Assembly: GCA_900095095.1 (NCBI GenBank)
Contig: FMBT01000337.1
Coordinates: 186,001 to 250,000, forward strand
Source of the DNA: Fragilariopsis cylindrus CCMP1102
Lineage: Eukaryota > Bacillariophyta > Bacillariophyceae > Bacillariales > Bacillariaceae
Direction of reading: 5' to 3'
DNA: 64,000 bases
Positions 13,307 to 55,775 of the stretch are shown here, piece by piece; within the stretch, counting starts at the first letter, position 1, and every line of letters begins with the position of its first letter. The position numbers and the translations under genes were made by a program. The notes under the pieces are model-generated. The model did no database searches. It was not told the DNA's origin and saw only the letters and a list, made by a program, of their open reading frames with translations.

Positions 13307-16300
13307 TTAAGAATAAAGGATGTGTTCTTCTGGTAGACACACAGTACAACAGTCACCAACATCCTTGCACATTTCACAGTTAGCATAGATCTGAATATTA
13401 TTCCCACATATCTCGAATGGTATTCCCACAGACTTGTTAAAGCCATTGCCAAAAATGGAGAAATATTGGAGTTCTGGGATATTAGCAATCTCTGTTGGAA
13501 TTGTTCCTATTAGTTGATTAAAATCTGCTTGGAAAAATATAAGTTGACTCATTGTTCCAATTTTGGATGATATTGTACCCGATATGATATTCCGATCAAT
13601 ATCTATATACTGTAGTGAAGTAGATTCATATAGATCTTCAGGTATCGGTCCGGATAGGATATTTCGATCAAGGTCAAGCTTTTCCAAATACATCATATTT
13701 CCTACCCAGCTCGGAAAGTGACCTATCAGACTATTGCGATCAAAGTCCAACTCCTCCAGATATTTTAAATGTCTCAATTCTTTTGGTATTGTTCCTCTCA
13801 TATTGTTTTCATCTGAAACACGAGAAAGAAAGAATGATTGTTGTTAGCAAACGATCCAAAGCACGATAGACGAAATACGCAAAAAATGGATAGCAAATTA
13901 TTGATTAACGACCTACCAAGGTTGAGTTTTGTAACACGGTTGAAAGAATCGCATGTTACACCTCCCCAAGTACATTCGTGCCCAGAACTCAAAAATCTCT
14001 CATCCTGACACGGAGTTGTCCCATCTCTTGTGCATGTCAACCAATCGTCGCCAGAGGTGTAGAAATAAAGAAGTACCAACGTATATCTTTGAGCAAGGTT
14101 TACATCATCAGGGCATACTTCAAATAGATCTTCATCCGTCATCCAAGAGTTTGCTATGGAAACAGGGTGCTGAGAATCATCAAATGATTCTATTCCAGAC
14201 AGAACGGTAAGTTGTTGAAAAATGTCTACCTTACGTTGATACGAAGAGATGTTGCACGGCAAAGTGGAGATATTGATGAGAAGGCTGAGTCTTTATATGT
14301 TGGAGACGTTGATGGGAAAGCTGTATCTTTGAATGTTCGTATGCTCGATGGCGACAACGTTTTCGACACTTGTACGGGACTTGCTGGTGGAGGTGTTCGT
14401 CTGATAAATATACCCGGGGGTAGTCGCTGAGAAAAAGTCGAGTCCTCAGGCTGAGATGGAGCTATTGATGGACTTGTAGAAGTAATACCCAAACTGTCAG
14501 ATGGTGGAGATGATACTTGACTACTGGTAGGTCTCGATGAAGGATTAGAACTTGCCCGTAGTGATGGCTTATCCGATGGTGACAATGACGGATCAACGGA
14601 AGGGCTTGTTGTAGGTTGTTGTGTCGGATTTGCACTTGGGGAAGCGATGGCACGGCACTTCCAGTGGGAGCATAAGTTGGTGAAGAACTTGGATAATAAC
14701 TACCCGATGGCTCATCTGATGGAGATGCACTAGAACTAGAGCTAGGAGATCCACTGGGTGAGCTACTCGACTCTATACTCGGACCATCCGATGGAGACAA
14801 ACTTGGCCCGTCAGATAGAATGTATGACGGAGATGTGCTCGGACTAGAGCTAGGAGATCCACTGGGTGAGCTACTCGACTCTATGCTCGGACCATCCGAT
14901 GGAGAAAACTTGGCCGTCAGATAGAATGTATGACGGAGATGCGCTCGGACTAGAGCTAGGAGATCCACTGGGTGAGCTACTCGACTCTATACTCGGACCA
15001 TCCGATGGAGAAAAACTTGGACCGTCAGATAGAATATATGACGGAGATGCGCTCGGACTAGAGCTAGGAGATCCACTGGGTGAGCTACTCGACTCTATAC
15101 TCGGACCATCCGATGGAGACAAGCTTGAACCGTCAGATGGAGCATATGACGGAGATGCTATAGGACTAGAGCTAGGAGATCTAGTAGGTGACCCAGTTGA
15201 CAAGCTTGGTCCGTCACTAGGGACAAAACTAGGACCATCTGTTGGAACACTTGGCTCTGTACTCGGACCATCTGATGGAACCAAGCTTGGCCCATCAGAT
15301 GGTATATATGACGGAGATGCACTAGGGCTAAGGCTAGGAGATCTAGTTGGTGATCCAGTTGACAAGCTTGGTTCATCACTAGAGACAATACTAGGACCAT
15401 CTGTCGGGGTAAAACTCGATGCAACACTAGGTTTTAAAGACGGATAATTCAATGGTGCTGCTGACGGAGATACACTAGGGCTAAGACTAGGAGATCCAGT
15501 AGGTGATCCAGTTGACAAGCTTGGTTCATCACTAGAGACAATACTAGGACCATCTGTCGGGGTAAAGCTCGATGCAACAATAGGTTTTGAGCTTGGTGAT
15601 GCTGTAGGAGAAAAAGAAGGATCATCTGATGATGCCGCCGACGCGGAAGCACTGGGGCTGCCGGCCGGGTTTCTTGAAGGAGCTTCACTAGTAGGACTTA
15701 CGCTAGAACTTGACGTTGGTCTTCCAGTAGGTTCTTCAGAAGTATTGACAGACGGAGAGACGCTTGGGCTACTGCTAGGGGCATCACTTGAGCTTTCAGT
15801 TGGTGAGGCACTTGGTCTCGCAGATGGAGCTGGACTCTTTGTTGGGGTATTACTTGGAGCAGATGAGGGGAAGTAACTTCCAGATGGTGATTCTGATGAA
15901 CCAAAACTGGGACTACTAGTAGGCGTTGCGGTTGGCGTTGCGGTAGGCGATGCGGTAGTCGATGCGGTAGGCGATGTGGTAGGCGATGTGGTAGGCGTTG
16001 CAGTAGGCGTTGCAGTAGGCGTTGCAGTAGGCGTTGCAGTAGGCGTTGCAGTAGGCGTTGCAGTAGGCGATGCAGTAGGCGATGCAGTAGTCGTTGCAGT
16101 AGGCGATGCAGTAGGCGGTAAAGATGGAGAGCCTGTAGGGGGTGCTACGGTGGGAGACCCAGCAGGCGTAGACGATGGAGATAAAATTGAGAATTCAGTA
16201 TCCTCGAACGGAACAGGTGTGACTTCGGCACACCTCCAAAACAGATCAGTCAGCGCACATGCGCAATTTTGCGACTCTGTCGTCGTTTCTTCATTTGCAG

Positions 16301-16754
16301 TTAGAAATCTGGAATATGTACATTGACCCCATGAGGTGCTATCTGGTAGGATAGAGTCACACGAATTTCCATCTGTAGGAAAGAAACTGGGGCACCAAAA
16401 TCGTCTCACGTCCTCGATACGCCCATTTACTACCAGTGAAGGTCCAGACAATTCAGAAACTAACTCGAAGGAAGGAATTTTTGATGATTGTGGATTACTG
16501 ACTGATGTGTTCCCAGTGGGTGTAGTTGTTTGTACTTGTTGATCATCTATTCGTGTACCGATTTGAATTTCAAAGTCCACCGGAGGAAGATTTGGTGGAG
16601 AAGTGGGTCCTGGTATTGGGATATCGACTACAAATCGATGCTTCAATATTTGATGCGTCGATGTTTCTTCATCATCTTGTTGAAAGTCGTTCGCTTCAAT
16701 CCCTTTCGGCAAGAGGGAGATTATTATTGCACAGTATTTCAAGATAAGATTCAT
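13307..16754 (-). CDS. Secreted mucin-like LRR surface protein
   Basis: Exons 13917..16754 and 13307..13812, with gtaggt donor and tttcag acceptor. Order: signal peptide (MNLILKYCAIIISLLPKGIEA), a Cys-containing domain at about residues 110-190 (RRFWCPSFFPTDGNSCDS, CTYSRF, CACALTDLFWRC), a very long Ser/Thr/Pro stalk of PTATPTATP and PSDGPS repeats, then the LRR module typical of diatoms: CPDDVNLAQRYTLVLLYF, W..C and ECTWGGVTCD caps, and LRRs such as LEKLDLDRNILSGPIPEDL. The C terminus is Cys-rich (CEMCKDVGDCCTVC). No membrane anchor is seen, so it is probably secreted to the cell wall; the stalk is a likely O-glycosylation target. The frame breaks where one copy of the 108-base repeat is two bases short (14904-14914). 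A second shift occurs about 14640. Confidence 0.85.
14736..15201. repeat. 108-base coding minisatellite
   Basis: The block ctagagctaggagat recurs at 14736, 14844, 14950, 15058 and 15166, giving periods of 108, 106, 108 and 108. Each full unit codes 36 residues of the PSDGPS stalk. The 106-base copy is short by one base in each of two homopolymers. Confidence 0.9.
15919..16115. repeat. 12-base coding minisatellite
   Basis: About 16 units of ggcgttgcagta and variants, encoding the PTA/TPTA run of the LRR stalk. Confidence 0.92.
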
Positions 16755-17712
16755 TCTGTTGTACTCCCTATGTGCTGCATGAACGTAAAATACTCGTTCC
16801 TTTCAAATTGTTGGATGATTCGCAACCTTGTACCGTATATACAACTGTACAATTGTAGGTGCTGGAATTGTGCGGTGATTTGTAATGCGGGTGACAATAA
16901 CACAAGTAAAAAGTCAGTATTTTTTTAAGTTTTTAACTTTTGAAGTGTGAAGGTCGGCGAGCGTTCACAATGAAATAACGACTAATTATCACTTAACGGC
17001 GGTTGTAATCGCAAACCATCATTACCTCTACGTATAACGACTACGGTATTTACACCCGCGCGGGACTCGATGCTCTTGCTCACGAACAAGAGGATAAACT
17101 TAAGAATCTTCTTTTTTTGTTTTGGAAAGCAAAGCTCACTTCAAGTTATTTACTATACACATTTATAGGATTTTGTTGTGAATTGAAAGCTTTAAATCTC
17201 CTACACCACAGGTAACACCGCACCAGCATATACAATAAAAGGATTGCACTTTGCCTACTCTTCTGTTCCATCTAATGAAGTGTAATAGTAGTAGAAGGTA
17301 CATAAATATTTTAGGTAGGTAGGTGTTAATGATTGGTGCCATTGAACAGTTGCATGATGTGAATTTTCATGTAAAATAGATATCAATCCTACATGTTGAT
17401 AATGTGATCCCTTTCAATATAATAATACTAGAGGTAAATAATACAAAATAACTCTCAAAATCTTAAACTCAAGAAAAATCATACTTGATTCCACGTGGAA
17501 GGCCAAAAATCGCACGTACATAAGGTGCGACGCGACGACTAACGTTACTTTTATTTTACTAGTGTGTATCGTAATGAATTTTCATGACCTAAATCATTTA
17601 TTTCCTCTTTTCGCATCCACCCTCTTTGTCACAGACGACTACAATACAATTGCACAAAACTACAACCAATAAAGAAAATTTATAGCCGAAAAAAAAAGAA
17701 GGAAAAGAAAAT
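16755..17712. other. Divergent intergenic region between LRR and OLA1 genes
   Basis: No gene, repeat or RNA recognised; it must hold the promoters of both genes. Confidence 0.6.
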
Positions 17713-27233: not shown

Positions 27234-30200
27234 ATGAATGAAAGATCATCCACAAGAACCACATCGAAAGCAGTAGCTATGAGTAGTTGTACAGCAGTAC
27301 AAGATGATTTCACTACACCTGATCGATCAAAGCAATGTTGGCTGCTGCAGCCAACGGTCATCATGGACATCATCATCATCATCGTCATCATAATAGCACA
27401 GAAGAAAAGAAAGAAGATCGAATGAATAGTAGCAACAATACCACGAATGATAATATCAATAGTAGTACTAATAGTACATTAGTAACACCATCTGATTCCT
27501 TTTCAACAGCTGCTGCAAATAGGAAAGAAAATGCTGCTGCAGCTGCACGAGCAGCAGCATCGAAGAAGAAGAATACGACGACGACGACGTCTGCATCATC
27601 TGTGTCTACAAGTACAAGTATGATAAAACAGGAGGATAATAAACTAGTTAGATTTGATAATAACAATAACACAAAGAATCAACAGCAGCAGCAGGATCAG
27701 GAACAACAGAAGAAATATGTTCTGTAGGATCTGCTGATGGAGGGGAATCATCATCATCATTATCTCCAACTTCTTCATCAAAACTTGGTTTAGTATCTCG
27801 TAGAGGTAGAAGTACATCATTATCATCACCGGGTAGTCGATCATTAGTACCACCACCAATCGGTGCTATACCATCAAAGGAAGCAGCGGAAGCTGCTGCT
27901 GCTGTATTAGAATTTAAAACATTTCGTAGTCCGGAACGGAGATACCAAAAAGAAACTAAAGATGATGAGAATAGTGAAGAAAACAATAATAATAGCAATA
28001 GTGTTGGTAGTAGTATACACCCTCCGAATTCATCATTAGCACCAAGAGATAATACTTCTACTAAAGCTTCCGGTGATGATACACTCCCCAAGAAAAAAAG
28101 TTCAACAGCAGCAACATTAATATCAACAACAAGTGCTCATAATACATCTTCGTTCAAAAAGAGTAGTAATGTTACTTTTTCACCGGTACCATTACCGAGA
28201 ATTTCTGGTGATAAGGTGAGAGTTTTTGAGACAAATAGTTTATCTTTTGAGAGAGAGAGAGAGAGAAAGATATCAAATAAGGATGTGATGTTTATTTCTC
28301 TTTTAATTCTCTGGGTGTGATGTCATGTCAGTGTGAATGGATTCTCATTTTTTTTTTTTTTTTTTCCCTCGTTTTGTTATGATGATAATCACAGTTTATG
28401 AAAACACCTATAAAATCACCGACAGGAGGACGATTCACAAGTCTACCAACTTTAGACGATGATGCATTGGGGTCACCGGGTGCTATATTTCTTTCTCCTA
28501 CTCGTACTCCAACGTATTTTCATCATATCGATAGAAATGCCACCACAACTACCAATCTGAAAGATAGTGCCGTTTCTGCCATTGGTTCTTCTACGGATTC
28601 ATGCACGAACGTCACCAGAGCAGCACTACCACTAACGCCACGAACACCAAAATATGGTGCTGGTGGATTTGGTGGTGTTGGTGATCAATTGGATGGTGGT
28701 CGACTCTTGGCAACTCCTACAGATTTTGCCTATGATTATGGGAAGAACACTGGAACAACGCCTGGTTCCTTACTCGATACATCGAACGTATTGGCATGGT
28801 TGCATTCACCCACAGCGAATGGATTATTTTCACCGGGTGGACTGGGTTCTATGTTGAATACACCTCGGGCTGGTGGTACAGGATCAATCCTAAGGACACC
28901 GCATACACCGACGTTTAGTACATCCTTCTTCTTTTCAGATGTTGCTGGTTTGCCAAGAGGAGATTGTGCATCACCTACCAAGTCTCCTGCAAAATCTCAT
29001 ATTGGTGTTGCTGCTGCAGCTGGGGGTGGTGCCACTGCCACCAACGCTTCTGATCCTGGCGGAAAACAACGAGGTACGAATAATGGTCGTGGTAACAACA
29101 ACATTATCTGTATTTCTCCTCTGTCCTCATATCACAAATCAAAGAATGGTCCATTAGGACCGAATTCTCCCAAGATCAATTACAAGGATATGTTTGCATC
29201 TCCTGCCGAACGATCAGGAATGGCGATGCTGGGACGAAAAGCTCATGGTGGTACTACTGGTGGGGTTCAACGTGGAGGTAATTTAGACGCTGTTCATTTA
29301 GCAGAACGCGATTTGATGGAAGATGAAGACCTGAGCGTTCTGCTACAGTTAGCTTCTAGTACACCTCGTCCGGCAGCGGCAGTATCAGGAGGATCAGGAA
29401 TTTCCACCAACGATCGTACGGCTGTGACATCATCAGCATCTACTACGACTGCTGCAGATGGTACGACTGTCTTCCGATCATCGTCTCGAGATGGCAAAAA
29501 TGGCGAGAATGAAAACCTACCGTCGCTTCAGCTTCCCATTATTGGTGATCAAGCCGGTGATGTACAAGGTACAACGCTTACCAGAAAAATTCATTCGCGA
29601 GATCACTATGATAATATGACAGATGATCGAGGAATAAGACCGATTCATCAAACGAGTGGCGGATCTACTGTTGGTACCACAAAAAACAATAATGCGTCCG
29701 ATAATGGGTATACACCACCAATCACCGGTAGTATGCAACATCCAGCTCAACGTAGCGCTTACCCTATGCCAACGCATTTTCCTCCCCATCACGAATCACC
29801 ATATTATCCTTCATTACATCCTGCGATGACACACGGAGGGAGTATGCGTGTCATTGTAGGTGGACCGCCTCCAAATCGTGGAGGGAAATCTTCTGGGGAT
29901 TCGTCACAGCGTGTTCGGACCTATACGATCGGTCCTCGTGGGGAATACCCACCACCTCCTTACCCTCCTCCACCGTCACATTATCCGCATCATCGCCCAG
30001 CTCATCCTCCACCTCATGCTCATCTACATCCACACTATAGTCGCTATCCGCCGCCACCACCTCCTCATCCTCACAGCCATAGTCAAAACGCACATAGGCA
30101 GCATATGCCTCTGTATGGGGGAGCACCTCCCACCAAAGCTAAAACGGGGAAGAAACAATCATTGGGGAAGACAACTAATACTAGTAAAACTGGAGTGAAA

Positions 30201-30671
30201 CGTCCAGCTACAACATCGGCACCGAAAGCACCACCATCCGCGAAAAAGGCAAAGAAACCGTCATCACAGAGCGCACCAAAGAAGAAAAATAGATCGCCAC
30301 CACTGGTTGACAAGGCAGAACGTCTTGCTGCTGCAGCAACCATAGAAGCTGTCAATCAAGCTAGTGGTGGAAAGAATAACAAGGCTGCGGCTCTTGCTGC
30401 AGCTATTCTTCGGGGCGTTACTATGCGGCCATCGGGAAAATGGCAAGCACAACTTTACTTTGCGGGGAAATCAAGATATATTGGTGTTTTTGATACACGG
30501 GAAAAAGCAGCTCTTGCGTACGAAATTGCAAGAGAAAAATTGAAATCCGAAAAATCAGCTGAAGGTGGGGGTGTATTGAGTCCGAAGAGAACAGAAGCAG
30601 CAGTCAACGCAGCACGGAAAGCGGCGTTTGAAGGTGTAAACGAACGCGATCCTAGGCTAGCAGGGAAATAA
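27234..30671 (+). CDS. AP2/ERF-domain transcription regulator with low-complexity His/Pro region
   Basis: Exons 27234..28215 and 28395..30671. The DNA-binding domain is near the C terminus (30411-30545): RGVTMRPSGKWQAQLYFAGK followed by SRYIGVFDTREKAALAYEIA, with the WQAQ and YIGVFDT strands and the LAYE helix of AP2. A long disordered N-terminal part is rich in proline-directed Ser/Thr sites (SPTRTPT, TPRTPK, SPTKSPAKS), which hints at cyclin-dependent or MAP kinase control. A His/Pro-rich block (HYPHHRPAHPPPHAHLHPHY) and a basic nuclear signal (KKAKKPSSQSAPKKKNRSPP) precede the domain. Exon 1 has frame breaks at two A runs (27329-27331 and 27713-27715), each fixed by one A. Diatom AP2 proteins are mostly uncharacterised; targets are unknown. 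Confidence 0.88.
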
Positions 30672-31072
30672 TTCTTTCACGGGGTTGAACAACAACAAAC
30701 AATTTTTTTAACAATACATTTTGTCAATGATAAGTTACTAGATAAATACTAGATTACTGTACTTCAAGTAGTGTATTATCATTATTATTTGCTGGCATTT
30801 CTCCATGGAAAATTCACTCAAATTTTTAATTCTAGAAACATCTAAACTTAATAAAAATTACAAATTATCGAACATACCAACGCCAATTTATCTTTACATA
30901 ATAATAATTGTAGCAGCAGGAAGTAGTTGTGTACGGTGCAAAGCACTCAGACATCAGCTGAAACGATAGATCTAACTTCCGTTTGCTTTTTTGTCTGATA
31001 TTCATTTGGATATTCAATAAAAGTAAAATCTAATCTAATTATGTAAATTAACAATCTGAGGGAGTTCTTTTT
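30672..31072. other. Convergent 3' intergenic region
   Basis: AT-rich; nothing recognised. Confidence 0.6.
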
Positions 31073-32869
31073 TCAAATGTTCATCTGACGCAATGCATTG
31101 TATTCCCCACGTTGTCTTCCAAACCCGTATTGATCCTTTAGAAAGACATGCCATATGCCGTAACCAAAGAAGACTAAGGCAAAGAATCGGAACCAATGAA
31201 AACTCCTTGATTTTTCCTTCTTCAATGTATTATTTGAAGTCGGAATTTCCAATGGCTCGCTTTTATCTTTATTAGGATTGTTCGTACTACGACTACTACC
31301 CCCGGTATTCCCTCCTCCAGCGTGGGACACAACATAGTCGTCATCAATAGCAGGACCAAGCCTAGTTTTGACTTTTTGAGGATCTGGGAATTGTTTTACA
31401 ATGTTCATGTTGTCAATAGTTTTCGCAGCAATTTCTTGACACGAACCAAAGAGGGATGCAGAATTAGTATATTTATCAGGTATTTCAGGAATCCATCCTT
31501 CCTTTACACCTCTCGAAAAATCCCATTCCGCGAATGCTCCGCCTTCCATCTTTAGTGTATAGAAGAACCAGCCACTTGATGCACCAGTATCGACACTTTC
31601 ATACGAAACCATTTGAGCTTGGACATGATGTTCCAAGAATTCCTTCCTTTCTTCGCTCAACGTTCGCTCCATCATTGCTACCTTTTGATCCATCTGATTT
31701 TTTGGGTCCTGAATTTCTTTCATAATTTCTTTCACCATTTCCTTCGGTAGAATATCATATGCCGCACTCCATTCACCAACAATCCTTGAAACTCCATTAG
31801 ATGGTTTAGTGTTCTTCGGATGATCTTCATAACAACAACTAGATGTTTCTTTAGCAAGTTTGGCACAGGTATATGCAATATGCTGCTTTGGAGAAAGGGC
31901 ACGTTCGTTTTGATTAAAAACATGATAGTAGTGACTATCAATGTAGGTGTTGTTGTGCAGATTAGAATCATCCCACCATCCATTATTCCAATTGGCAGCA
32001 TTAAACGAATCAGTCATGTATACCGCTGTATTATCTCCCATAATATCTCGAACGATTTTGAACGCATCGTTACTGTATTTTTCAATCTGAGTCTGGGGAC
32101 AGTTTACAAACGGAGAGTTTAAGATACCAAAACCTGTAACTACATCTCGCAAGTTGTCATCCATGATGGCTTGCGATATGTCCTTGATGGCATCGAGGCT
32201 TCGATTGACGTTTTCCGGCGACGTAATCCAATGCTGACACTCGGAAGCTTCTGGTAAGGATTCTCCAGTAACTTCGAAGCCATCCTGTGAACCAAATGTT
32301 GTATGCATATCGATCCAAACGTTGATGTTGTATTGTCGACACCAACCAACAAATCGAACAAAGTACAACCATTGTCCATCGATCCAAGGTTCGTCATCTA
32401 AAATATCATTCATTACATAATGTGGAAGGGGAACTCTTACGTACTCAACATTTGCCACTTCTGACAGGAATTTAACATCGTCCTTCGTTACAAAATTATC
32501 CCAATGAAAGCTCATATATTCCTTGGCGAGTGCCTTATTGGGAAATGAACTGAGTAAGGTTTTTTCATCCGTAGGATAATCTTTTGTAATATCCTCCGTC
32601 AGTGTTTCAATCAAATGTGGTTTACAGGAATACAAATCGCAATATTTGTGTTTTTGACTGGAGGCTGGTGGCGCACTGATTTGATTAGGATAGAAACACC
32701 AGTCCCCTTGTAGTTGACATGAATTCAATGCAAATAAATATGGAGTAATGAATCTTTCTGCCAAAAGCCACCCCCCAATATTCACGCCTCTAATAAATTG
32801 TTTCTCAGCGACGACACTGGCAGTACAAGCGACGGAAATAACTAAAAGGAATATGGTGATCAATTTCAT
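31073..32869 (-). CDS. Membrane-anchored GH5 exo-beta-1,3-glucanase-like protein, acid/base Glu replaced
   Basis: A 598-residue intact single-exon protein. Signal peptide (residues 1-21), then the GH5 hallmark FIRGVNIGGWLLAERFITPYL, as in fungal exo-1,3-beta-glucanases. Further blocks are NVEYVRVPLPHY, NINVWIDMHTTFGSQDG and NNTYIDSHYYHVF. The nucleophile is present: E366 in RIVGEWSAAYD. The acid/base position is not: family members read NEP, here N251-S252-P253 (codon TCT at 32114-32116). A membrane span at about residues 556-576 and a basic tail follow a Ser/Gly linker. In diatoms such proteins are expected to act on chrysolaminarin or callose-like beta-1,3-glucans. Without the acid/base residue it may be inactive, a binding protein, or use another residue. 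Confidence 0.88.
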   Translation of the reverse strand: MKLITIFLLVISVACTASVVAEKQFIRGVNIGGWLLAERFITPYLFALNSCQLQGDWCFYPNQISAPPASSQKHKYCDLYSCKPHLIETLTEDITKDYPTDEKTLLSSFPNKALAKEYMSFHWDNFVTKDDVKFLSEVANVEYVRVPLPHYVMNDILDDEPWIDGQWLYFVRFVGWCRQYNINVWIDMHTTFGSQDGFEVTGESLPEASECQHWITSPENVNRSLDAIKDISQAIMDDNLRDVVTGFGILNSPFVNCPQTQIEKYSNDAFKIVRDIMGDNTAVYMTDSFNAANWNNGWWDDSNLHNNTYIDSHYYHVFNQNERALSPKQHIAYTCAKLAKETSSCCYEDHPKNTKPSNGVSRIVGEWSAAYDILPKEMVKEIMKEIQDPKNQMDQKVAMMERTLSEERKEFLEHHVQAQMVSYESVDTGASSGWFFYTLKMEGGAFAEWDFSRGVKEGWIPEIPDKYTNSASLFGSCQEIAAKTIDNMNIVKQFPDPQKVKTRLGPAIDDDYVVSHAGGGNTGGSSRSTNNPNKDKSEPLEIPTSNNTLKKEKSRSFHWFRFFALVFFGYGIWHVFLKDQYGFGRQRGEYNALRQMNI

Positions 32870-33566
32870 CGTTAGACTTTCGTTCGTATAACGTTAGTTG
32901 TTCGACTTTATTGCATTAAAATTAATTAATCTTCGATGTTGTGTAGAATTTTGAGTGAAATAGTGAGCTTCTCTCCTTAGTATTCGTCTTGTCCGTGGCT
33001 TCAGCAACAGCAACGCACAGTACAAGCCCAGTTGATAAGTTGAAAAATTGTCACAGCGGCGTTTTTGTAAGAAAAGACAAGATCATAAGATTGAAAATGG
33101 CAAAGATTCGAAATTCATTCGCTTCGACTTGTTTTTCATAAGTAGCCATCACTACAATCTCAAAAGGTAAAAATTACAAATACTGACTGTATCATGTTCC
33201 TGCGAAAATAAAAATTGAGCAAACTATTCTTAGATTTTCCTGTCGTCCCCTATCAAACACAAAACTTCCATGAAAAAGGGGGAAGTTTTGTTTTTTATTG
33301 TTTTACATTTTTGCGCGTACCAAAAATGAATGGATGCGAGGTTGTGAAATTCACTTATTTTTTAGATAATATTTTTTACATGCTTTCTTCGAGATTTTTA
33401 CGTGCATTCTCGAATCTTTGGCTCGTCATCCAACAACAAACAAACGATACTGTAGCTGCCACACTACTGCCTTGTACCTTGACGACAAGTTAAGAGAGAG
33501 TTTTCGTTCCAATACAATTATAGTATTTCATTTAGATTGATATTCGGAAGATCAGAATATATCACC
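32870..33566. other. Divergent promoter region of GH5 and pyruvate kinase genes
   Basis: No gene, repeat or RNA recognised. Confidence 0.6.
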
Positions 33567-35665
33567 ATGTTTTCTCAAGTAATTGCAAGACAATGTTGTC
33601 GACAAGTAACAAAGCAAGGAGTAGTAGTACCTGCGATGTCAGGACTTATTTCGTCGTCGTCGTCGTCGATGATGATTAATTCACGTCGTAGTTTCTCGGA
33701 CACGAAGTATACTGCAACACCACTTAAAACGAGCTTCAATCTAATCGATCCAATCTTGATTAATAGTAAAATTGGATCCTCGGAACACTCCCGTCTACCA
33801 CTGACGAAAATTGTTGCTACCATTGGACCGACATCTGAACAAGCAGAACCATTAAAAAAAGTCGTTGAAGCTGGAATGAAGATTATGAGACTGAATTTTT
33901 CCCATGCAACAACCGAAGAAGTCGAATTACGATTGACTAATCTTGCATTGTGTCAGGTACGTCATTTTTGTTTTTCTTTTTGACCTTACTATTATTAGGA
34001 GGGTAATCTGTCAAAGCAACATAATTTTTTGTTCTGCTATTCTTTCTTTTTGACTGTTGATGAAAGTAAATATGAAAGAAGACAAAAAAGTTGACTAACC
34101 ATTTTGTTGTTGTTGTTGTTGTTGTTTTATGTGTAGGACTCGTACGATTTTGATGGTCCAATCGATAAGGTACAAGACGTCCGAGCTACACTTCTTGATA
34201 CACGTGGACCAGAGATCCGATCGGGTAAATTAGCTCACGATGATTCGGGACATGAGACTATTCAACTTCAAAAGAATGACACCATTACACTTCAAACCTC
34301 TGAAGAATATGCAGAAGCATCAACAGATAAAGACCTGTTCATCAATTACAGCAAATTACATTTATGTATGAAACCTGGAATGAAAGTGTTGTTAGATGAT
34401 GGAGCTGCAATCCTCACCGTTGTATCAATCAACGAAAGCGATGGAACTGTTGTTTGTAGTGTCGACAATTCAGCAGAGTTACGTAGTCGTGCCGGTGTCA
34501 ATATACCTAATGCTGAAACAGACTTACCAGCTATGTCTGAAAAGGATAAAACAGATATCAAATATGGGTTAGAAATTGATGTCGATTATGTTGCTGCATC
34601 CTTCATCCAAACGGCTGATGGTGTAAGAGAAATTCGAAATTATATGATAGAATGTGCGAAGGAATTAGGTGTGGCTGATCGACCATTGCCTCTTATCATT
34701 TCTAAGATTGAAAGTGCATCAGCATTGAAACATTTCGATGAAATCCTTGAAGAATCGGACGGTATAATGGTTGCTAGGGGTGGTACGTCGTGATATATCT
34801 ATGATTTTGCTGAAGTATGCAGTCTGTCAAAGATTCTCACCGTCAATTTGTTTTACTAATGCTGTTCATGCAAACCGTCTCACCATTGTTATTTATATAC
34901 GATCTCTTTCTTGAACTGTGTTCATCATACTTCATTCAACTATTATTACGAATATTCTACTGCTCTGCCGTTAGACCTGGGAGTTGAGATTCCAATAATG
35001 CAAGTTACAAATGCACAAAAGGAGATGGTAGCTGCGTGCAATTCTGTAGGTAAACCTGTCATAGTAGCAACCCAAATGCTCGAAAGCATGGCAAAAAATC
35101 CTCGACCAACTCGGGCTGAAGTTTCTGATGTGACTAATGCCGTTTATGATGGTGCTGATGCAGTTATGACAAGTGGTGAAACAGCCAAAGGCAAATACCC
35201 TAACGAAACGATCAAAATGATGACGGATATCATTTTATCAGCCGAGCACTTTATGCGTCAGGTTCCTTGGATAGTTTATACGCTCCTCGATCAAGTTTGT
35301 TCACGGGTGACAGTAGCGATCCTATGACTGCGGTCGCCAAAGGAGCGGTCGCGGCCAGTTTAACTAACGACTGTAAGGCTATCTTGGTTTTTACAGAGAC
35401 TGGTAAGCTACCTTCCTTGGTAGCTGCTTTTCGACCGAACTGTCCAATTGTCACCTTTTGCCCCACTAGCAAAGTTGCCCGTCAGCTTATTTTGACCAGA
35501 GGCGTCTACCCGATAGTTGGACTGCAGGATACTACTGACGACGAAGAAATGATTGAAATTGCTATGAAAGAAGCTGAACGTATGGGCTTTGTCTCTAAGG
35601 GGGACTCTATTGCAGCCATTTATGCCGATCCAAAATCTACCACTTTCAAGCTTGCTCAAGTATAA
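33567..35665 (+). CDS. Pyruvate kinase, probably mitochondrial
   Basis: Exons 33567..33956, 34137..34782 and 34975..35665. Catalyses phosphoenolpyruvate + ADP to pyruvate + ATP. Seen motifs: [39 protein letters not shown], the B-domain edge, [30 protein letters not shown] with the catalytic Lys, MVARGDLGVEIP across intron 2, and [14 protein letters not shown] with [13 protein letters not shown]. The first ~45 residues ([15 protein letters not shown], then RRSFSD) look like a mitochondrial presequence. Diatoms are known to run the lower half of glycolysis in mitochondria, so this is a credible member of that set. One frame break in the C domain, at the gg run 35269-35270: an extra G gives [12 protein letters not shown]. 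Start ATG at 33567 preferred over 33537. Confidence 0.92.
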
Positions 35666-35797
35666 TTAAGTAGATTTTTATATGTACTAAAATTACATTT
35701 ACTACAAGTTCAATTTATTCGTCTATAGATGGATGTAAAATATTGCTTTACTTAAGATTAGAACTTTTAAATCTAAGCCAGCAGCTGCGTACTTGTA

Positions 35798-35838
35798 CTA
35801 CTAGCTACTAGCTACTAGCTACTAGCTACTAGCTACTA
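35798..35838. repeat. (ctactag)n short tandem repeat
   Basis: About six 7-base units between the convergent pyruvate kinase and sufD stop codons. Confidence 0.92.
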
Positions 35839-35889
35839 CATGGTAAAGAAGGTATTGGTGATTTCAACTAGCTGTCGTCGCGTTTTTAT

Positions 35890-38141
35890 TTAACTACTTT
35901 GGAATTCACCCCTAACCGCTCGTTCGCCCTGTGGCACAACGTTTTGTAGACGCTTGATCAATCGACTTTGAAGTCCCTCTTCACTATCCACAGACTGTAG
36001 CATAACTGGGTCCACCTCGCTGCAAACATCATCCGCAAATGCATACATCAGGAGATTCCTTGACTGATTAGTATCAAGCCCTCTGGATCGGAGGTAAAAT
36101 AGTTCTTCTTCGGACAAATCGGAAACGGTAGCACCATGAGTACACTGTACATCATCGGCAATAATTTCTAAAGATGGTACCGCCCATGCACGTGATCTAT
36201 CACTCAATAGGATAGTTCTGGATATTTGTTGACTATCTGTTTGCTGCGCGCTCTGTTCGACACGGATACGGCCGCGAAAGGCTCCAGTAGCTCTTCCTCC
36301 GATCATATTCTTTTGGATCTGCTCGCTTGTGGTACCTTGAGCGGCATGATGGATGTTTGTCTTACAATCTGTTCTTTGATTTCCGCCAGATAGGAAGAAT
36401 CCATTCAATTTGACATGTGCACGTGGTCGTAACAAGGCAACCGAATGAGCGATTCTAATTCTACCACTTCCACCGACGCTCATCACAGTTCCTGCATAAG
36501 TTCCATCATCACCTATTACATTAACTTCAATAGCATCTAAATGTGTGTCCTTCGTTGCGGCACGTTCTGCTTCTACATAACGTGCGATTGGTTCGCCCTC
36601 ACCAAAGCTGTTATCACTTTTTTCAACACCGGCAGTTACCATACCTCCAGTCTCCTCAAGGAACGAGTGTGTAACATTGGCACCCTCCTTAACAAAAACT
36701 TGTGTATATCCATTGTAAAGTTTAGGAACAGCCTCACTTTTGTCATCTAAATCAACACATGCCTGTACAACAGACAACCGACTCTTTTCTTCAGCAACAA
36801 CTAAAACTCTTGGATGAAACGCCATACCATCACAGTCGGAATTCTTCGCCGCCCCTCCACTATTTGTTACAGCATTCAGGATCAAAACTGGTTTAGGATG
36901 TTCATCGATCCCTTCATCAAGACCTTTTGGTGCTCGGACATATGCAACGGCACCAGTCCGTCTGGTATTTAATGCCGCAAAACAAGCTGTTCCTTGTTGT
37001 GTATTAATAGCGAATTGGGAAATAGGTTCACCTAAGTTATGATCAGGTCCACTAAGTTTCTTGAACGAATTACAGTATGTGTCCTCTCCGGTCGGTACGG
37101 GTGCTGCAAGTTCATCCGTGTGTCCATCTGTCAGTCTGGACAAGTATGATTTTACATCCTCAGTAACGACGGAACTATTATCATCAATATTTCCAATATT
37201 AACAGCCAAATCATCCTTCTCTATTGATAATTGGGGTACAAATCGACCATTAATGTATACCAATCGAGCCTGACACTTATCATCTGGAATCCAACTTCCA
37301 CCATTTTCTAATTGTACTCTGTAGTCTGTAATTTCCTCTTCGGTCAATTCTACAATCTTACCATTATCTTCACAACTTCCGGAATAATCCTGGTTGACCA
37401 TACTAGATACATCAAAGTTCCTCCACGTTTCTGCATTCCTCCTCGGTGTAGGTAAACCAAATTCTTCCAGTCCAAAGGCAGGTACTAATGGTGTCCAGGG
37501 TAGTTTCGTACTAACGTATGGAGTCCATTCCTCGTCATCTTCTGGCAGTGCGATCTATTTAAACAAAAAACAAAAATATATATACATATAATGAGAATGA
37601 AGTAGCCGTACTTCGAACAAACAAGACACTGCTTGATCAATACACACACACACAAACACACAAAACATATATATACATACATCATTAATTAGAGGGACTG
37701 CTGTAGTTAAAATCTTTCTCGCATCATCAGCTAACGAGCCCATAATCCCTTGTTGGTCTTCATTCCTAATAAATCGCCAAACCACTTATCACATTGTTCA
37801 TCAAGGTTGGAGCGACGTGATAAACGGAAGGATTCATGGTCAGGAACTTCGTAGTCGACACCTGCAACATATTCCTTTTTCTTAGTCTTCTTATTATTTT
37901 TATACCCTTCAGAACGTTCACCGTCTCCGCATCTTCATCGGTAAGATCCGCTTCCGGTCCTAGGCCGATACTAACGCGTAGTGATGATGTCGTTGACGAT
38001 GAAAAAGATGACACTCTATGATTGGTGCCGGTATTCGAAGAAGTAGTAGTGAAAGCAGATGTGGTGGTGATATGATGATGGCATCCCAATAAAGACAACC
38101 AACACAAAATAAGGTAACGTTTTCCGATGGTATTTTTTCAT
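35890..38141 (-). CDS. sufD: Plastid Fe-S scaffold assembly protein SufD, nuclear-encoded
   Basis: Exons 37681..38141 and 35890..37554, spliced in phase (PLIND to IALPEDDEEW). SufD is a partner of SufB and SufC in plastid Fe-S cluster assembly. The SufD beta-helix core shows RIRIAHSVALLRPRAHVKLN, GRATGAFRGRIRVEQSAQQT, SDRSRAWAVPSLEIIADDVQ, CTHGATVSDLSEEELFYLRS. LPTPRRNAETWRNFDV matches the family's N-terminal W motif. The preprotein appears to start at the ATG at 38141 (MKKNTIGKRYLILCW, in frame after adding two bases to an A run), giving a signal peptide ending HITTTSAF, a plastid cleavage site. Two more frame breaks in exon 1 (A run 37876-37880, and about 37766) are also cured by one base each, giving DHESFRLSRRSNLDEQCDKW. 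Exon 2 is intact. Confidence 0.94.
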
Positions 38142-49375: not shown

Positions 49376-50908
49376 ATGGTCCAAGATCCGAGAGTCACGA
49401 CGTTGTTAGGTCGGTTAGGTGGTTTGTATCGAGATCCAGCACGAGTGGATCGAGATACCTCTAGTTTATTAAAAAGTTCAGTGGGTACACATTTAACACC
49501 AGGAATATCACCACTTGTTGAAAATAATGGCGATTCCTCCCATTGTTTAGTATTACAGGGCACGATCGCGATAGTCTTTCGTGGTATGACCTACCAATTA
49601 TTAGTGGATATATATTTACCACCCGGATATCCAATCCGACCACCTGTATCATTTGTACGACTGGCAGAAAATATGGTACGTTTTTTTATGTAATGATATT
49701 ATTATTATGACTATTATTATTGTGTTCGTGTTTGTGATTGTGTTTGTGTTTGTGTTACTGCTATTACTGATGTTACTGATGTTACTGCTCCGCTCGTCAA
49801 TCGCAACTCAATTACTCATCTCTCTCTTCTCTGTCTCTCTCTATTTCTATTCCTGTCAATAATAAAATATCATCTCTATAAACTTTCTTCCTGGATGGAT
49901 GGGATGAATACTGTACTGTACTTTACTATAATACAATACAATACAATACAATATCCACAGTATCTGAAAGAAAGTCATCCTCACGTTGGAAGTGATGGGA
50001 TGGTGTATATGCCATATACACATGAATGGAATCCACGTACACATTCCTTAATTGAAATGGTCGTGGCAATGAGTAGTGTCTTTTCAGCTGATCCACCCGT
50101 GTTTACTCGAGCAGCTCCAGCTCCCGCTCCTCCGCCGTTGGAGACACCACCACCACCACCACCCGCATATTCGAGTTATGTATCATCCACTTCTAACAAT
50201 AATAATAATAATGATTCCGAACGGTACATGCAAGAACAAATTGCTGCTATAATGGCAAAAGAGATAGAAGAAGCAAATTCGGCTGCAGAAATTGCACGTA
50301 AAGCTGATATGGAGGAACTGGATCGGAAAGAACAGATAGAAGCACAACGACAATGGGAAACAAAAAAATGTGAACAAATTAGAATTGATGTCAATAAAAA
50401 AATACGATGTTATTTACAAAATTTTACAGAAGAAACAAGAAGTACCTTGTCGGCGGATTGGAGAGATTCCGAACAATTAACACAAACAAAGAAACAAATT
50501 GAGCAAGAGATACAAGATTTAACTAATAAAAAAATAAAATTGAATCGGCACATTACTACAATGGACAATAAAACGACAGAAATTGAAAACTGGTTAGAGG
50601 AAAGTAATAAGAATGATGATACTACAAATAATTTGAAGCAGGAAATTAATGTGGATGATATCTGTCAACCTGTTAATAAATTGAATACACAACTGTTAGA
50701 GTTGAGTGCCGAAAGTGCTGCCTTAACGGATGTGATGTACTTTTTAGATCGTGGTATGTATATGAATCAAATTGATTGTACGACACATCTGAAAATGATA
50801 CGTAAGCTTGCCAAAAGACAATTTCTGATTCGAGCACATTTGATTAAAATTAATCAATATACTGTTAGTCAACAGCAGCAACAACAACAACAACAGCAAG
50901 TAAATTAA
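49376..50908 (+). CDS. TSG101: ESCRT-I subunit TSG101/VPS23
   Basis: Exons 49376..49675 and 49961..50908 (MYLKES junction). The UEV domain reads YQLLVDIYLPPGYPIRPPVS and continues FVRLAENMYLKESHPHVGSD, GMVYMPYTHEW, SLIEMVVAMSSVF. The catalytic Cys of true E2 enzymes is replaced (YMPYTHEW), as in TSG101. Next come a Pro-rich stretch, a coiled coil (about residues 190-330 with KKQIEQEIQDLTNKKIKLNR) and the steadiness box (ALTDVMYFLDRGMYMNQIDC followed by LKMIRKLAKRQFLIRAHLIK). A Gln run ends the protein. It sorts ubiquitinated cargo at endosomes and recruits ALIX/ESCRT-III. No frameshift. Confidence 0.94.
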
Positions 50909-51715: not shown

Positions 51716-54700
51716 ATGTTCCAAAGAAATCTTCATTCCAAGAAAAAAGCGCTGGAGTCATCCTCGTCATCGATTCTATCCTCCGACATCGTCGATAATA
51801 TTGAGAAAGACAAGAACGCAAATCGATTCAATACGAAGTTGACGAGAATAATAAATCTCCATCGAAGGTTGCTGCTAAGATTATTTTGTCTTCTGTCCTT
51901 TACTTTGGTAACATTAAATCTATGGTATCAGCCTCAGCCCACCCCAAGACGAATACCATGATGCAACATATTATATCAGTGCCAACTCTACGGATAACGT
52001 CATCATTTCAACGCAACAGCAACGAACGAAGCAACAAAATTTCATCATACAACATGGTTTGAATCAGAATCCAATCGCAAACCATGCATGTGACGGATAT
52101 AGAGGGATATACCATATTGAAAAGGGTGACATCGGTGGGGCGGCTGGAACTGTTTTCTTTCAATTTGTTATCGGTCAAATTATATGGGCGGAGAAATATA
52201 ATTTCAAACCTTGGGTGTACCTTAATAACGTTAGTCACATCGTTTATGATCCTATAGTTCACGGAAATAATACCGGTGTGAACTTTACGATGCAAAAGGG
52301 TACGGAAATTTCATACATTCAACGGCCGATGGGACATAGAAGAGATGCGTATCCAGGACAAACCGTTGTGAATAATCCTGACAATTTGCGATCTTTTCAT
52401 TATAATTTTGATGGAAATGGGGTTTGGGATAATTACTTTGAACCTATATCTGATTTTATTCCCGGTGATAAATCGTGTCAAGATAAACCCCTAGTTACTA
52501 TGGACTTATACCAAGTAACACCAGGCGTTCATGGATTTTCTGGTGCACCAAAATGTTGGAGGTACGAATATCTTCCAGATTATATAACAAAGCCACATAT
52601 ACCCCTGAATGACTGGTTGGCACCTCAACGTCAATCTGCCCACGATGTATTGAAAAGATATATCCGATTTAAGCCTCATATTAAAGCCAAAGCAGAATAT
52701 GTTAATCCTTCCTGTTCCATCGAGACTAATAATGCATGTCTTGGGATTCATATTCGACATTCTGATAAGGCCGCTGGTCGACGAATACTTGATACGGATG
52801 AATTTTTACCGTACGTGAAAGCCTTTTTAGATGCTGGAGGGAAATGGATATACCTTGCGACAGATTCGGAGAAAGTTGTTGAACACATCAAAACTACATG
52901 GCCAGAGAATGTTCTAAAAGTTATTCGATCAATGGGAGATGACGTGGTTCGTTCAAATGACGAACAGGCTGTATTTGATATTGGTTCCCATCATCGTACC
53001 AATACAGAAATTTTAGTTGAGATCCAAGCTTTATCATATTGTCAATTTATGATTCATGGACTTAGCGCAGTAACTGAATCCAGTATATGGATCAATATTG
53101 ATTTGCATTACACATCCGTAAATTTAGAAGATCCTGATCATTCCAACGAAAATGAATTTGGGGATCTGGTGGGAAAGGTACTGACTGGTGGGAATGCTAG
53201 TCAAATTTTGGAGAAAAGAAATTCCATCAATAATAATAATATTAATAATTGGTGGATGCCTAAATCATACGAAGTGCAATTTTCAACGACCACTCTAAAT
53301 CAAAACCAAAATCAACTGCCGCATACTCAAGCATGTGATGACTCTACGAGTGGCATTCTTCATATATCGCACGTTGGTACGAATGCAGGTACCGGAGTAG
53401 CCTTCTTCACATCTGTTTTGAACCAACTCTTGTACGCAAAGAAAAATAATCTTACGCCATGGATTCACTTGAGTAACGAATCGAAATTGATCTACGATGA
53501 TGAAATCCACGGGGCAGCATCAGGGGGAGTCTCGGTGATTGAAGACATTCAAGATGTATTGATGATTACCATGTGGAGAATGACAACATCAACAGCTCAT
53601 TATTATACCCTGGTCCTGTGGTCGTTGAAAGTAGTAGACAGAAAAAAATATCACACTTCGTGGAAATGGCATCTGGACAAGCTATTTCCGTGGTGTCTCA
53701 GACTTTGTTCCAGAGAGTAAATCTTGTTCTGACAAGCCAGTTCTTTCCATGGATGAAGGTATGGTTTCTGCTATGAACTCGTGGAGTCCTTGGTCAAGCA
53801 AGGCCTGGCAGTATGACGATATTCCGAATGAATTCTGGAATCCGAAGGGTTTGACTTTGAAATCGTGGCTTGAACCAAGAGGATAAAAGCCAATGATATT
53901 GTCAAAAGATATTACAAATTCCAGCCTTTTATTGTTGAACGAGCTCAACAAGTGAACCCTTTCAATTCAACACCTTGTCTTGCTGTACATTTACTCAATA
54001 CCGACAAGGAAGGAATACATCGGGAAAAATTTCCCCCCAACAAGTTTCGGGAATACTTCGACGCATTTGCTCGTGCCGGAGGTAAGCATATTTATATTGC
54101 CTCCGATTCAAGTCGTCCATTAGAATACATTATGGAGCATTTCCCATCTAATATACAAAAAATGATTCGGACTCAGGGTCCGTATGTTGTGCGGTCATCC
54201 TGGAAATGGCCTCCTCATATGCTTGAGAATCATCATCGTACCAACTCTGAAGCTCTCGTTGATATATTGGCGATGTCGAAATGCCAACTTCTATTGCACG
54301 GTAATAGTGCAATATCTGAGGCTACAATATACTTGAATTTAAATCTTCACAACAATAGTGTCAATATGGAAGATCCTGATAGGTTGAGTGTTAAAGAATT
54401 TGAAGCCTTGGCTCGACGAGTAGTAGAAATTCCAAGTGATGAGGCAACAACTGTCAATGCAACGAAACTTCAACAAAGGTCTACTACAAAAATGAATGCT
54501 ACAAAGGGTAATCTCCCTCCTCCTCCTGAGAATAATAACGTAGGAATTATTAAGGGGAATCATGATCGGAAATGTAGAAGAAATGCTATCGTTTATCTAG
54601 CACAGAAAAAACACTCTAGTTATGAAAGGGATAGTTATGGAAATTTACTAAAATCATTGGAATTAATGAATACAAATTATCTTTCTGTTCACAACCATCA

Positions 54701-55775
54701 GAATAATACAGATGTAATAATATTCCATACTGATGATTTCAATCAAGACGATATGGATATAATGGAAACTAAATTCGGTTCATCTTTTCGAGAAGGACTT
54801 TATTTTATCAATCTACAAAATACATCATACTGGCAACGTCCAGTTGGCACCGTAACGACAATCCTTCTGCTGATTGGTATGCATATCCACTTTTCTCAGA
54901 AGGATACCGACAAATGATGCATTGGTATGCCATCGATATATGGCGTTTTTTCAAAGATTACGGAAGGAACAACAATTGTTCGTATGAATATATAATGCGT
55001 TTTGATGAAGATTCTTTTCTAAGATCAAAATTAGATTATGATATATTTGATTATATGAAAAAGAATGACTATATTATGGTTTTCGTCTTTGTTCGTATGA
55101 GATGCAAGTAACACAACGGATATGGACAATTTGGACTAAAATGACATCGAAGAAAGGATCACAAGTACCACCACCGATACGTGATATTGATTTGAATATG
55201 TGTGGTATATACAATAATTTTTTCGTTACAAAATTATCCTTTTTTCAAGATGACAAAGTACAACGTTTTTTGAAATTAGTTGATCGACAAGGAATGATAT
55301 ACCGGAGACGATTAGGTGATTTAATGATCCATTCTATGGCGGTATATGCATTCTCACCATCTGAAAAGATACATCGATTTTTGGACTTTACATACGAGCA
55401 TAGTACAATTAATACAACAACTGGTTGTGTTATTTGGGGTGGTATCCAAGCTGGATATAATGATCCAAATTCAAATAAAACATTAGATAAGTTTTATCAA
55501 GAAAAGTATTAGATCATAATTGTGCAACAACAACATCAGCAATAAGAAGTCCTCATAATCCGCCACCACTGGCAGTCATCGATACATCTTACTTGATCCA
55601 AGATGATTTAAGTCCAACTTATCAACATCATCTTCCATCAGAATATGCTTCTACTACTACTACTACTACTACTACTTTGAATAAAAATGAAAATGGGTAT
55701 GGTAAGAAATTGAAACTAAAAACGATCATGGCTGGTAAAGTTGAATATCCTGGTCAAGGATTGTTAAGTGGTTAG
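51716..55775 (+). CDS. Three-domain Golgi glycosyltransferase: two fucosyltransferase-like modules fused to GT15
   Basis: Type II membrane protein: 50-residue cytosolic head, anchor LLRLFCLLSFTLVTLNLWY, luminal rest. Module 1 (52059-53190) has CLGIHIRHSDKAAGRR and GGKWIYLATDSEKVV, matching the HxRR..DK and YLATDD blocks of the FUT8/NodZ-like (GT23) fold. Module 2 (53330-54400) repeats the same layout but reads CLAVHLLNTDK, without the Arg that binds GDP-fucose. Module 3 (54560-55510) resembles GT15 mannosyltransferases (Kre2/Mnt1): YRQMMHWYAIDIWRFFKDYG, YEYIMRFDEDSFL, LDYDIFDYMKKNDYIYGF. Uninterrupted frames (52059-53720 and 53952-54917) cross both module borders, so the fusion is real. Frame breaks, mostly one base, occur near 51955, 53560, 53660, 53885, 54850, 55070 and 55502-55505. 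GT activity is inferred. Confidence 0.8.

Follow-up and report, generated by a model that had tools for sequence, protein, structure and literature searches.

A stretch of 64,000 nucleotides from the Fragilariopsis cylindrus CCMP1102 assembly (contig FMBT01000337.1, positions 186,001 to 250,000), here called the window, carries at 51716-55775 (+) a gene that likely encodes a fused glycosyltransferase. An anchor-like segment is followed by two modules (M1 and M2), a linker, a module of glycosyltransferase family 15 (GT15) and a coding-like tail. M1 and M2 are homologous to each other. One diatom nuclear gene for a Golgi type II protein, with a tandem M1-M2 related to FUT8 and NodZ and a C-terminal GT15 module, is considered fairly probable, at least some of the frame breaks being assembly errors. 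The fusion architecture is probably new. No description of a fusion between glycosyltransferase family 23 (GT23) and GT15, or of a diatom GT15, was found in the open-licence literature searched. The features are, in window positions:

51716-51925 (+): start codon and N-terminal segment, open frame from the ATG at 51716, with a type II signal-anchor-like stretch at 51869-51925 after an RR pair
51908-52019 (+): candidate GT-AG intron of 112 nucleotides whose removal would bring anchor and M1 into one frame, one of 19 combinations
about 51.91-52.02 kb (+): frame switch from anchor to M1, intron or error
52086-53138 (+): module M1, FUT8/NodZ-like, one uninterrupted frame
52749-52769 (+): M1 donor-site motif HIRHSDK, equivalent to FUT8 His363, Arg365, Asp368 and Lys369 in the HMMER profile alignment to FUT8
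53139-53330 (+): M1-M2 linker, 64 amino acids, Asn-rich, open in frame, 192 nucleotides
53331-54380 (+): module M2, homologue of M1, with three internal frame switches in the window contig
about 53.55, 53.63 and 53.88 kb (+): the three frame switches inside M2
53988-54008 (+): M2 motif HLLNTDK, Leu in place of the Arg of HxRxxDK
54381-54572 (+): M2-GT15 linker, 64 amino acids, free of hydrophobic segments, open in frame, 192 nucleotides
54573-55512 (+): GT15 module (Kre2/Mnt1-type) in three frame pieces, the first approximately 290 nucleotides placed by position only
about 54.87 and 55.08 kb (+): two frame switches inside the GT15 module
54998-55012 (+): RFDED, assigned by motif, where CaMnt1 Arg234/Glu236 would be expected, with Asp instead of Glu
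55213-55224 (+): NNFF, Asn316 kept, Ser315 replaced by Asn and Glu318 by Phe (ungapped alignment with Kre2 1s4n)
55309-55401 (+): RLGD (Arg347 and Asp350 equivalents kept) to TYEH (equivalent of the metal-ligand His377 kept), from the Kre2 1s4n alignment
about 55.49 kb (+): frame switch before the coding-like tail
55491-55775 (+): coding-like C-terminal tail in a different frame, stop at 55773-55775 (codon-usage score 0.30-0.45 in windows starting at 55490-55670), possibly part of the protein

The single gene is indicated by the two module borders. M1 lies in a frame of 600 codons, which also extends into M2. Both linkers are open in the window contig and in contig C574, which covers most of the window in an alignment of eight pieces of more than 500 bases (shorter ones were left out) and is treated as the other haplotype of the region. 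In 20,000 shuffles, linker 1 stayed open in 0.5% and linker 2 in 0.8% of the cases. A codon-usage scan prefers the same frame through both borders, with coding-like values. Beginning with M1, the pieces keep a coding-like codon usage that weakens near 53.5-53.7 kb, and the anchor frame lacks such usage. The scan was trained on 3,696 codons in nine open reading frame (ORF) segments of the same genome, and the set includes a paralogue of M1 and unverified ORFs, so that amino-acid composition contributes to the score. One fused gene is likely, because the frame is open across both borders in both haplotigs and the codon usage is coding-like. A preliminary description of this DNA had proposed a single gene instead of two neighbours, with open frames across both borders, and this reading holds. 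Its wording of continuous frames applies to the borders, but the whole coding region is not one frame and its seven switches had gone unmentioned. Directly upstream lies a Vps23/TSG101-like ORF with UEV and Vps23 core domains (49697-50908, +).

The same description had named a Kre2/Mnt1-type module, which is present. Positions 55069-55509 match profile positions 253-324 of PF01793 (E=4.2e-13, 49.8 bits, cut-off 25). The preceding piece matches positions 152-210, in the right order and below the cut-off (E=0.025). A search of the genome with PF01793 exceeded the cut-off only at the fusion locus (47.2 bits) and its haplotig, and no further relative of the C-terminal half was found in this genome. 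Against protein structures in the PDB, this half aligns with Kre2 1s4n ungapped over 72 residues (E=7.2e-10), and Ktr4 reaches E=5e-8. The first piece gave no GT15 match in the PDB; for the second, Ktr4 (E=0.097) ranked below an unrelated formyltransferase (E=0.024). RFDED, assigned by motif, may stand for CaMnt1 Arg234 and Glu236, the latter a second metal ligand. The equivalents of Asn316, Arg347, the donor-binding Asp350 and the metal-ligand His377 are kept. Residue roles and CaMnt1 numbers were transferred onto the Kre2 letters from PMC11077754 (cited, like all PMC sources below, from excerpts). What is proposed for this module is a family relationship; fungal-type mannosyl transfer is not claimed.

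The C-terminal halves of M1 and M2 are 41% identical over 213 amino acids (E=2e-54), the M2 half being read from haplotig C574, and the N-terminal parts are 38% identical over 74 amino acids (E=3e-15). FUT8 is the sole Pfam family reported for M1 at E<=1 (E=0.011, 14.9 bits). A profile of three module sequences was compared with the PDB, and the seven best of 23 matches are FUT8 chains (E=0.0077 to 0.012), which count as one family, not as seven separate supports. Pfam reports one further family for the three module sequences, NodZ (PF05830), which matches one of them (E=0.18). In a Foldseek search with a model of predicted local distance difference test (pLDDT) 45, FUT8 ranked first of 1,234 matches (E=0.0093) and POFUT2 third. 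FUT8, NodZ or POFUT occupied 16 of 50 rows in VIA-align, where an ungapped pairing of the range starts would put model His66 at FUT8 position 363. All of these searches share the sequence and are not fully independent. Of the donor-site residues, His363, Arg365, Asp368 and Lys369 are kept in M1 and the paralogue, and Arg365 is missing from M2. The column aligned with Glu373, which has a gap beside it, holds Gly in M1, His in M2 and Glu in the paralogue. The GT23-like identity of M1 and M2 is thus plausible but weak. The two fucosyltransferase-like copies of the preliminary description are confirmed as homologous modules, while their GT23 likeness stays below the curated cut-offs. The profile searches it had recommended gave a GT15 match over the cut-off, a sub-threshold GT23 match, and neither O-FucT nor GT10 by Pfam at E<=1 for M1, the M2 C-terminal half or the M2 N-terminal part. 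Elsewhere in the genome, 14 O-FucT and two GT10 matches were detected; the fusion protein therefore need not be the only fucosyltransferase of this genome.

A single-module paralogue of 581 amino acids, with an N-terminal hydrophobic stretch and 40% identity to M1, is encoded on contigs C711 and C760, which are 99.8% identical over 9.7 kb. It keeps HxRxxDK as HIRHGDK, and the M1-type module hence also exists alone. A stand-alone protein on C205 and C40 (L021:2532-3914, -), again with an N-terminal hydrophobic stretch, scores below the PF01793 cut-off (E=0.001, 19 bits) and possibly represents a distant GT15-like family. No relative turned up in viral contigs when M1, the paralogue or two GT15 pieces out of three served as queries. 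The same result was obtained with the module alignment in a collection of genome contigs, which holds no eukaryote genomes and is uninformative on other diatoms, and in phages (M1), PHROGs and NCBIfam, likewise collections without eukaryote genomes.

The assembly analysed comprises 818 contigs and 67.9 Mb, and several inspected loci occur twice. Over the whole alignment, C574 and the window differ by 303 single-nucleotide variants (SNVs), 132 single-base indels and 72 longer indels. Within the gene, five single-base indels, one SNV and one 3-base indel were counted; a sixth single-base indel lies upstream of it. The lone SNV is synonymous in the M2 frame, keeping a Leu, and the 3-base indel preserves the reading frame. 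The single-base indels at 53574 and 53879 coincide with frame breaks of the window contig, and those at 53758 and 54672 break C574 where the window is intact. Since two switches sit at one-base haplotig differences, some frame breaks are probably assembly errors. The ratio of single-base indels to SNVs in the gene, 5:1, is well over the whole-alignment average; single-base indels outnumber SNVs in four other 4-kb bins as well (from 20, 24, 56 and 60 kb). Frame-shifting differences of the kind found between the two contigs are expected from long-read assembly indel errors and not from true alleles of a functional gene. Similar breaks exist elsewhere in the assembly, as seen on C600, C639 and C77, where silicon-transporter matches in different frames overlap. 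At the anchor-M1 junction, an intron could be placed by any of 19 GT-AG combinations that suit the frames, and one of these carries an in-frame stop. Alternatively, the assembly may contain an indel near 51942, a site of a one-base haplotig difference, and none of the combinations is preferable to such an error. The frame of C574 that leads into M1 crosses, on its N-terminal side, a stretch of lower hydrophobicity (hydropathy 1.21). The N-terminus of the fusion protein is uncertain.

Several observations weigh against an intact fusion protein. The window contig shifts frame seven times within the gene, and five of these breaks are common to both haplotigs. They may reflect errors common to both contigs, genuine lesions or, at the anchor junction, an intron. 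The openness of the linkers is by itself modest evidence, because open frames also occur in 54 of 546 overlapping stretches taken from non-coding DNA nearby. The anchor of the preliminary description is represented by a hydrophobic stretch at 51869-51925 following RR (hydropathy averaging 1.86 across 19 residues), but M1 is in a different frame from it in both the window contig and C574, and codon usage over 51770-51950 is better in a non-anchor frame, the one joined to M1 in C574. A decaying pseudogene, in which a fusion that arose by readthrough or duplication has since been disrupted by genuine frameshifts, would account for the shared breaks and for the loss of key catalytic residues in M2 and the GT15 module. 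It is nevertheless unlikely. The haplotigs differ at five single bases in the gene, yet by only one synonymous SNV and one in-frame indel, the codon usage is coding-like from M1 onward with the exceptions given above, and comparable breaks occur in the silicon-transporter matches and maybe in a pyruvate kinase. Less probable still is a tandem FUT8-like gene with a separate GT15 gene as its neighbour. Both module types are found alone, as the paralogue and the weakly GT15-like protein on C205 and C40 illustrate, but the frame from M2 through the linker into GT15 is open in both haplotigs, the linker has coding usage, and no hydrophobic anchor precedes the GT15 module.

The functional assignment is burdened by further findings of this kind. 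M1 does not reach the curated GT23 cut-off (PF19745, 27.6 bits), and a search of this genome with that profile gave zero matches over it. Used as a single sequence against the PDB, M1 has no FUT8 match at E<=10. The M2 C-terminal half and the full-length paralogue lack a GT23 match in Pfam, an unrelated NCBIfam model, TrmB, scores M1 with E=0.025, and universal stress proteins rank above FUT8 in VIA-align. M2 has lost the donor-site Arg. In the GT15 module, the active-site Glu318 is replaced by Phe, the donor contact Ser315 by Asn, the acceptor residues His312 and Trp314 by Gly and Tyr, and Ala351 by Leu. The acceptor site differs from the fungal one. For Candida Mnt1 an SNi-like mechanism is favoured (PMC11077754), so the loss of Glu318 need not abolish catalysis. 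The tandem modules might belong to another nucleotide-sugar GT-B family or be non-catalytic domains instead of fucosyltransferases. This is possible, if less probable than the FUT8 relationship, and would agree with the sub-threshold scores, the similar scores of unrelated models, the Gly at the Glu373 position of M1 and the low confidence of the structure models. It is opposed by the first rank of FUT8 in the Pfam, PDB-profile and Foldseek searches, by NodZ as the only other Pfam family, and by the HxRxxDK kept in M1 and the paralogue.

Under the favoured reading of one fused gene, we infer localisation, donors, order of action and product from sequence as follows. The gene product would be a type II membrane protein of the Golgi whose three glycosyltransferase modules follow one another on the lumenal side. 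M1 and M2 would be tandem duplicates of one GT-B module, a distant relative of the FUT8/NodZ group, which uses GDP-fucose, and the C-terminal module would be of the GT15 type (GT-A). M1 is the likeliest fucosyltransferase of the gene and would bind GDP-fucose and transfer fucose. M2, a degenerate copy, is probably non-catalytic and may hold the acceptor or assist folding; this role is proposed because the donor-site Arg is lost. The GT15 module may use a GDP-sugar, probably GDP-mannose, on an acceptor other than the fungal one, and its entry into the Golgi would depend on the fusion, since linker 2 has no hydrophobic segment. Both donors share the GDP carrier, and the fused protein would thus extend a single Golgi glycan, of the wall, the mucilage or a glycoprotein, by two sugars. 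The sequential fucose-then-mannose machine of the preliminary description is not established, given the missing donor-site Arg in M2, the Gly at Glu373 in M1 and the GT15 module devoid of Glu318, His312 and Trp314.

The main interest of the fusion is as a pointer to unrecognised diatom fucosyltransferases. In a 2024 survey, GT23 was reported absent from the screened diatom genomes and the presence of fucans in diatoms was questioned (PMC11468063). A divergent FUT8-like family, missed by the curated FUT8 model in this genome, could explain this absence. A fusion of GT-B and GT-A modules would be a physical hint at two sugars on one product, and the gene and its stand-alone paralogue are targets for knock-out or expression. 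Thalassiosira weissflogii is the same species as C. weissflogii. Fucose-containing sulfated polysaccharide has been described in eight diatom species, with high mannose in the T. weissflogii material (PMC7896085). The secreted material of C. weissflogii contains at least three anionic glycans, one being a fucose polymer and another a glucuronomannan (PMC13063451), and the mannose may thus come from molecules other than the fucose polymer. That the tandem copy of an undetected diatom FUT8-like branch forms, by fusion with GT15, a bifunctional synthase of a secreted fucose-mannose polysaccharide is accordingly a long shot, its probability being lowered by this separation of glycans. If true, it would supply glycosyltransferases for this polymer.

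Other loci concern the genomic context. The silicon-transporter family PF03842 gave 27 matches in the genome (best E=1.1e-226, profile search). Silicon transporters may also occur in silicified stramenopiles other than diatoms; the matches support a stramenopile origin and probably indicate a diatom. Two 4-kb bins at approximately 28000-36000 show no haplotig difference, against 303 SNVs over the whole alignment, and are read as a collapsed or homozygous stretch. Pyruvate kinase pieces at 33483-35662 (+) change frame at approximately 35.21-35.33 kb between the barrel and the C-terminal domain. A gap of 116 nucleotides between the domain matches leaves room for an intron, and the change may be due to an assembly indel or an intron. 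The window also encodes a GH5-type protein (Cellulase, PF00150, E=2e-7) with a C-terminal hydrophobic segment (31076-32893, -) and a long repetitive Ser/Pro/Thr-rich ORF resembling cell-wall proteins (14871-16802, -).

Compared with known systems, animal FUT8 (GT23) shares with M1 and the paralogue the H-x-R-x-x-D-K motif at the GDP-fucose site and is the top match in three kinds of search. It differs in that the modules described here score below all cut-offs, the Glu373 position of M1 is altered, and the modules form a tandem whose second member lacks the Arg and is fused to GT15. Brown algal GT23 enzymes, proposed fucan synthases with conserved His363, Arg365, Asp368, Lys369 and Ser469, are likewise stramenopile proteins far removed from FUT8, with approximately 22% identity on average (PMC11468063). 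They were compared by description, and the excerpts of PMC11468063 mention no GT15 fusion. GT23 genes have been predicted in several microalgal phyla in a 2025 review (PMC12507850). The bacterial GT23 NodZ and POFUT1/2 appear among the weak matches of the tandem modules, but are bacterial or protein-O-fucosylating enzymes and give no sequence match over a cut-off. Cryptomonads carry both GT15 and GT23 genes (PMC6260743), and GT15 outside fungi is therefore not new. With the fungal GT15 enzymes Kre2/Mnt1/Ktr, the C-terminal module shares the ungapped 72-residue Kre2 1s4n match and the kept Asn316, Arg347, Asp350 and His377; the five replacements and the position behind two GT-B modules set it apart. 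The bimodular GT2-GT74 fucosyltransferase of Dictyostelium likewise combines a fucosyltransferase with another glycosyltransferase module in one protein, although from families other than those joined here (PMC11468063).
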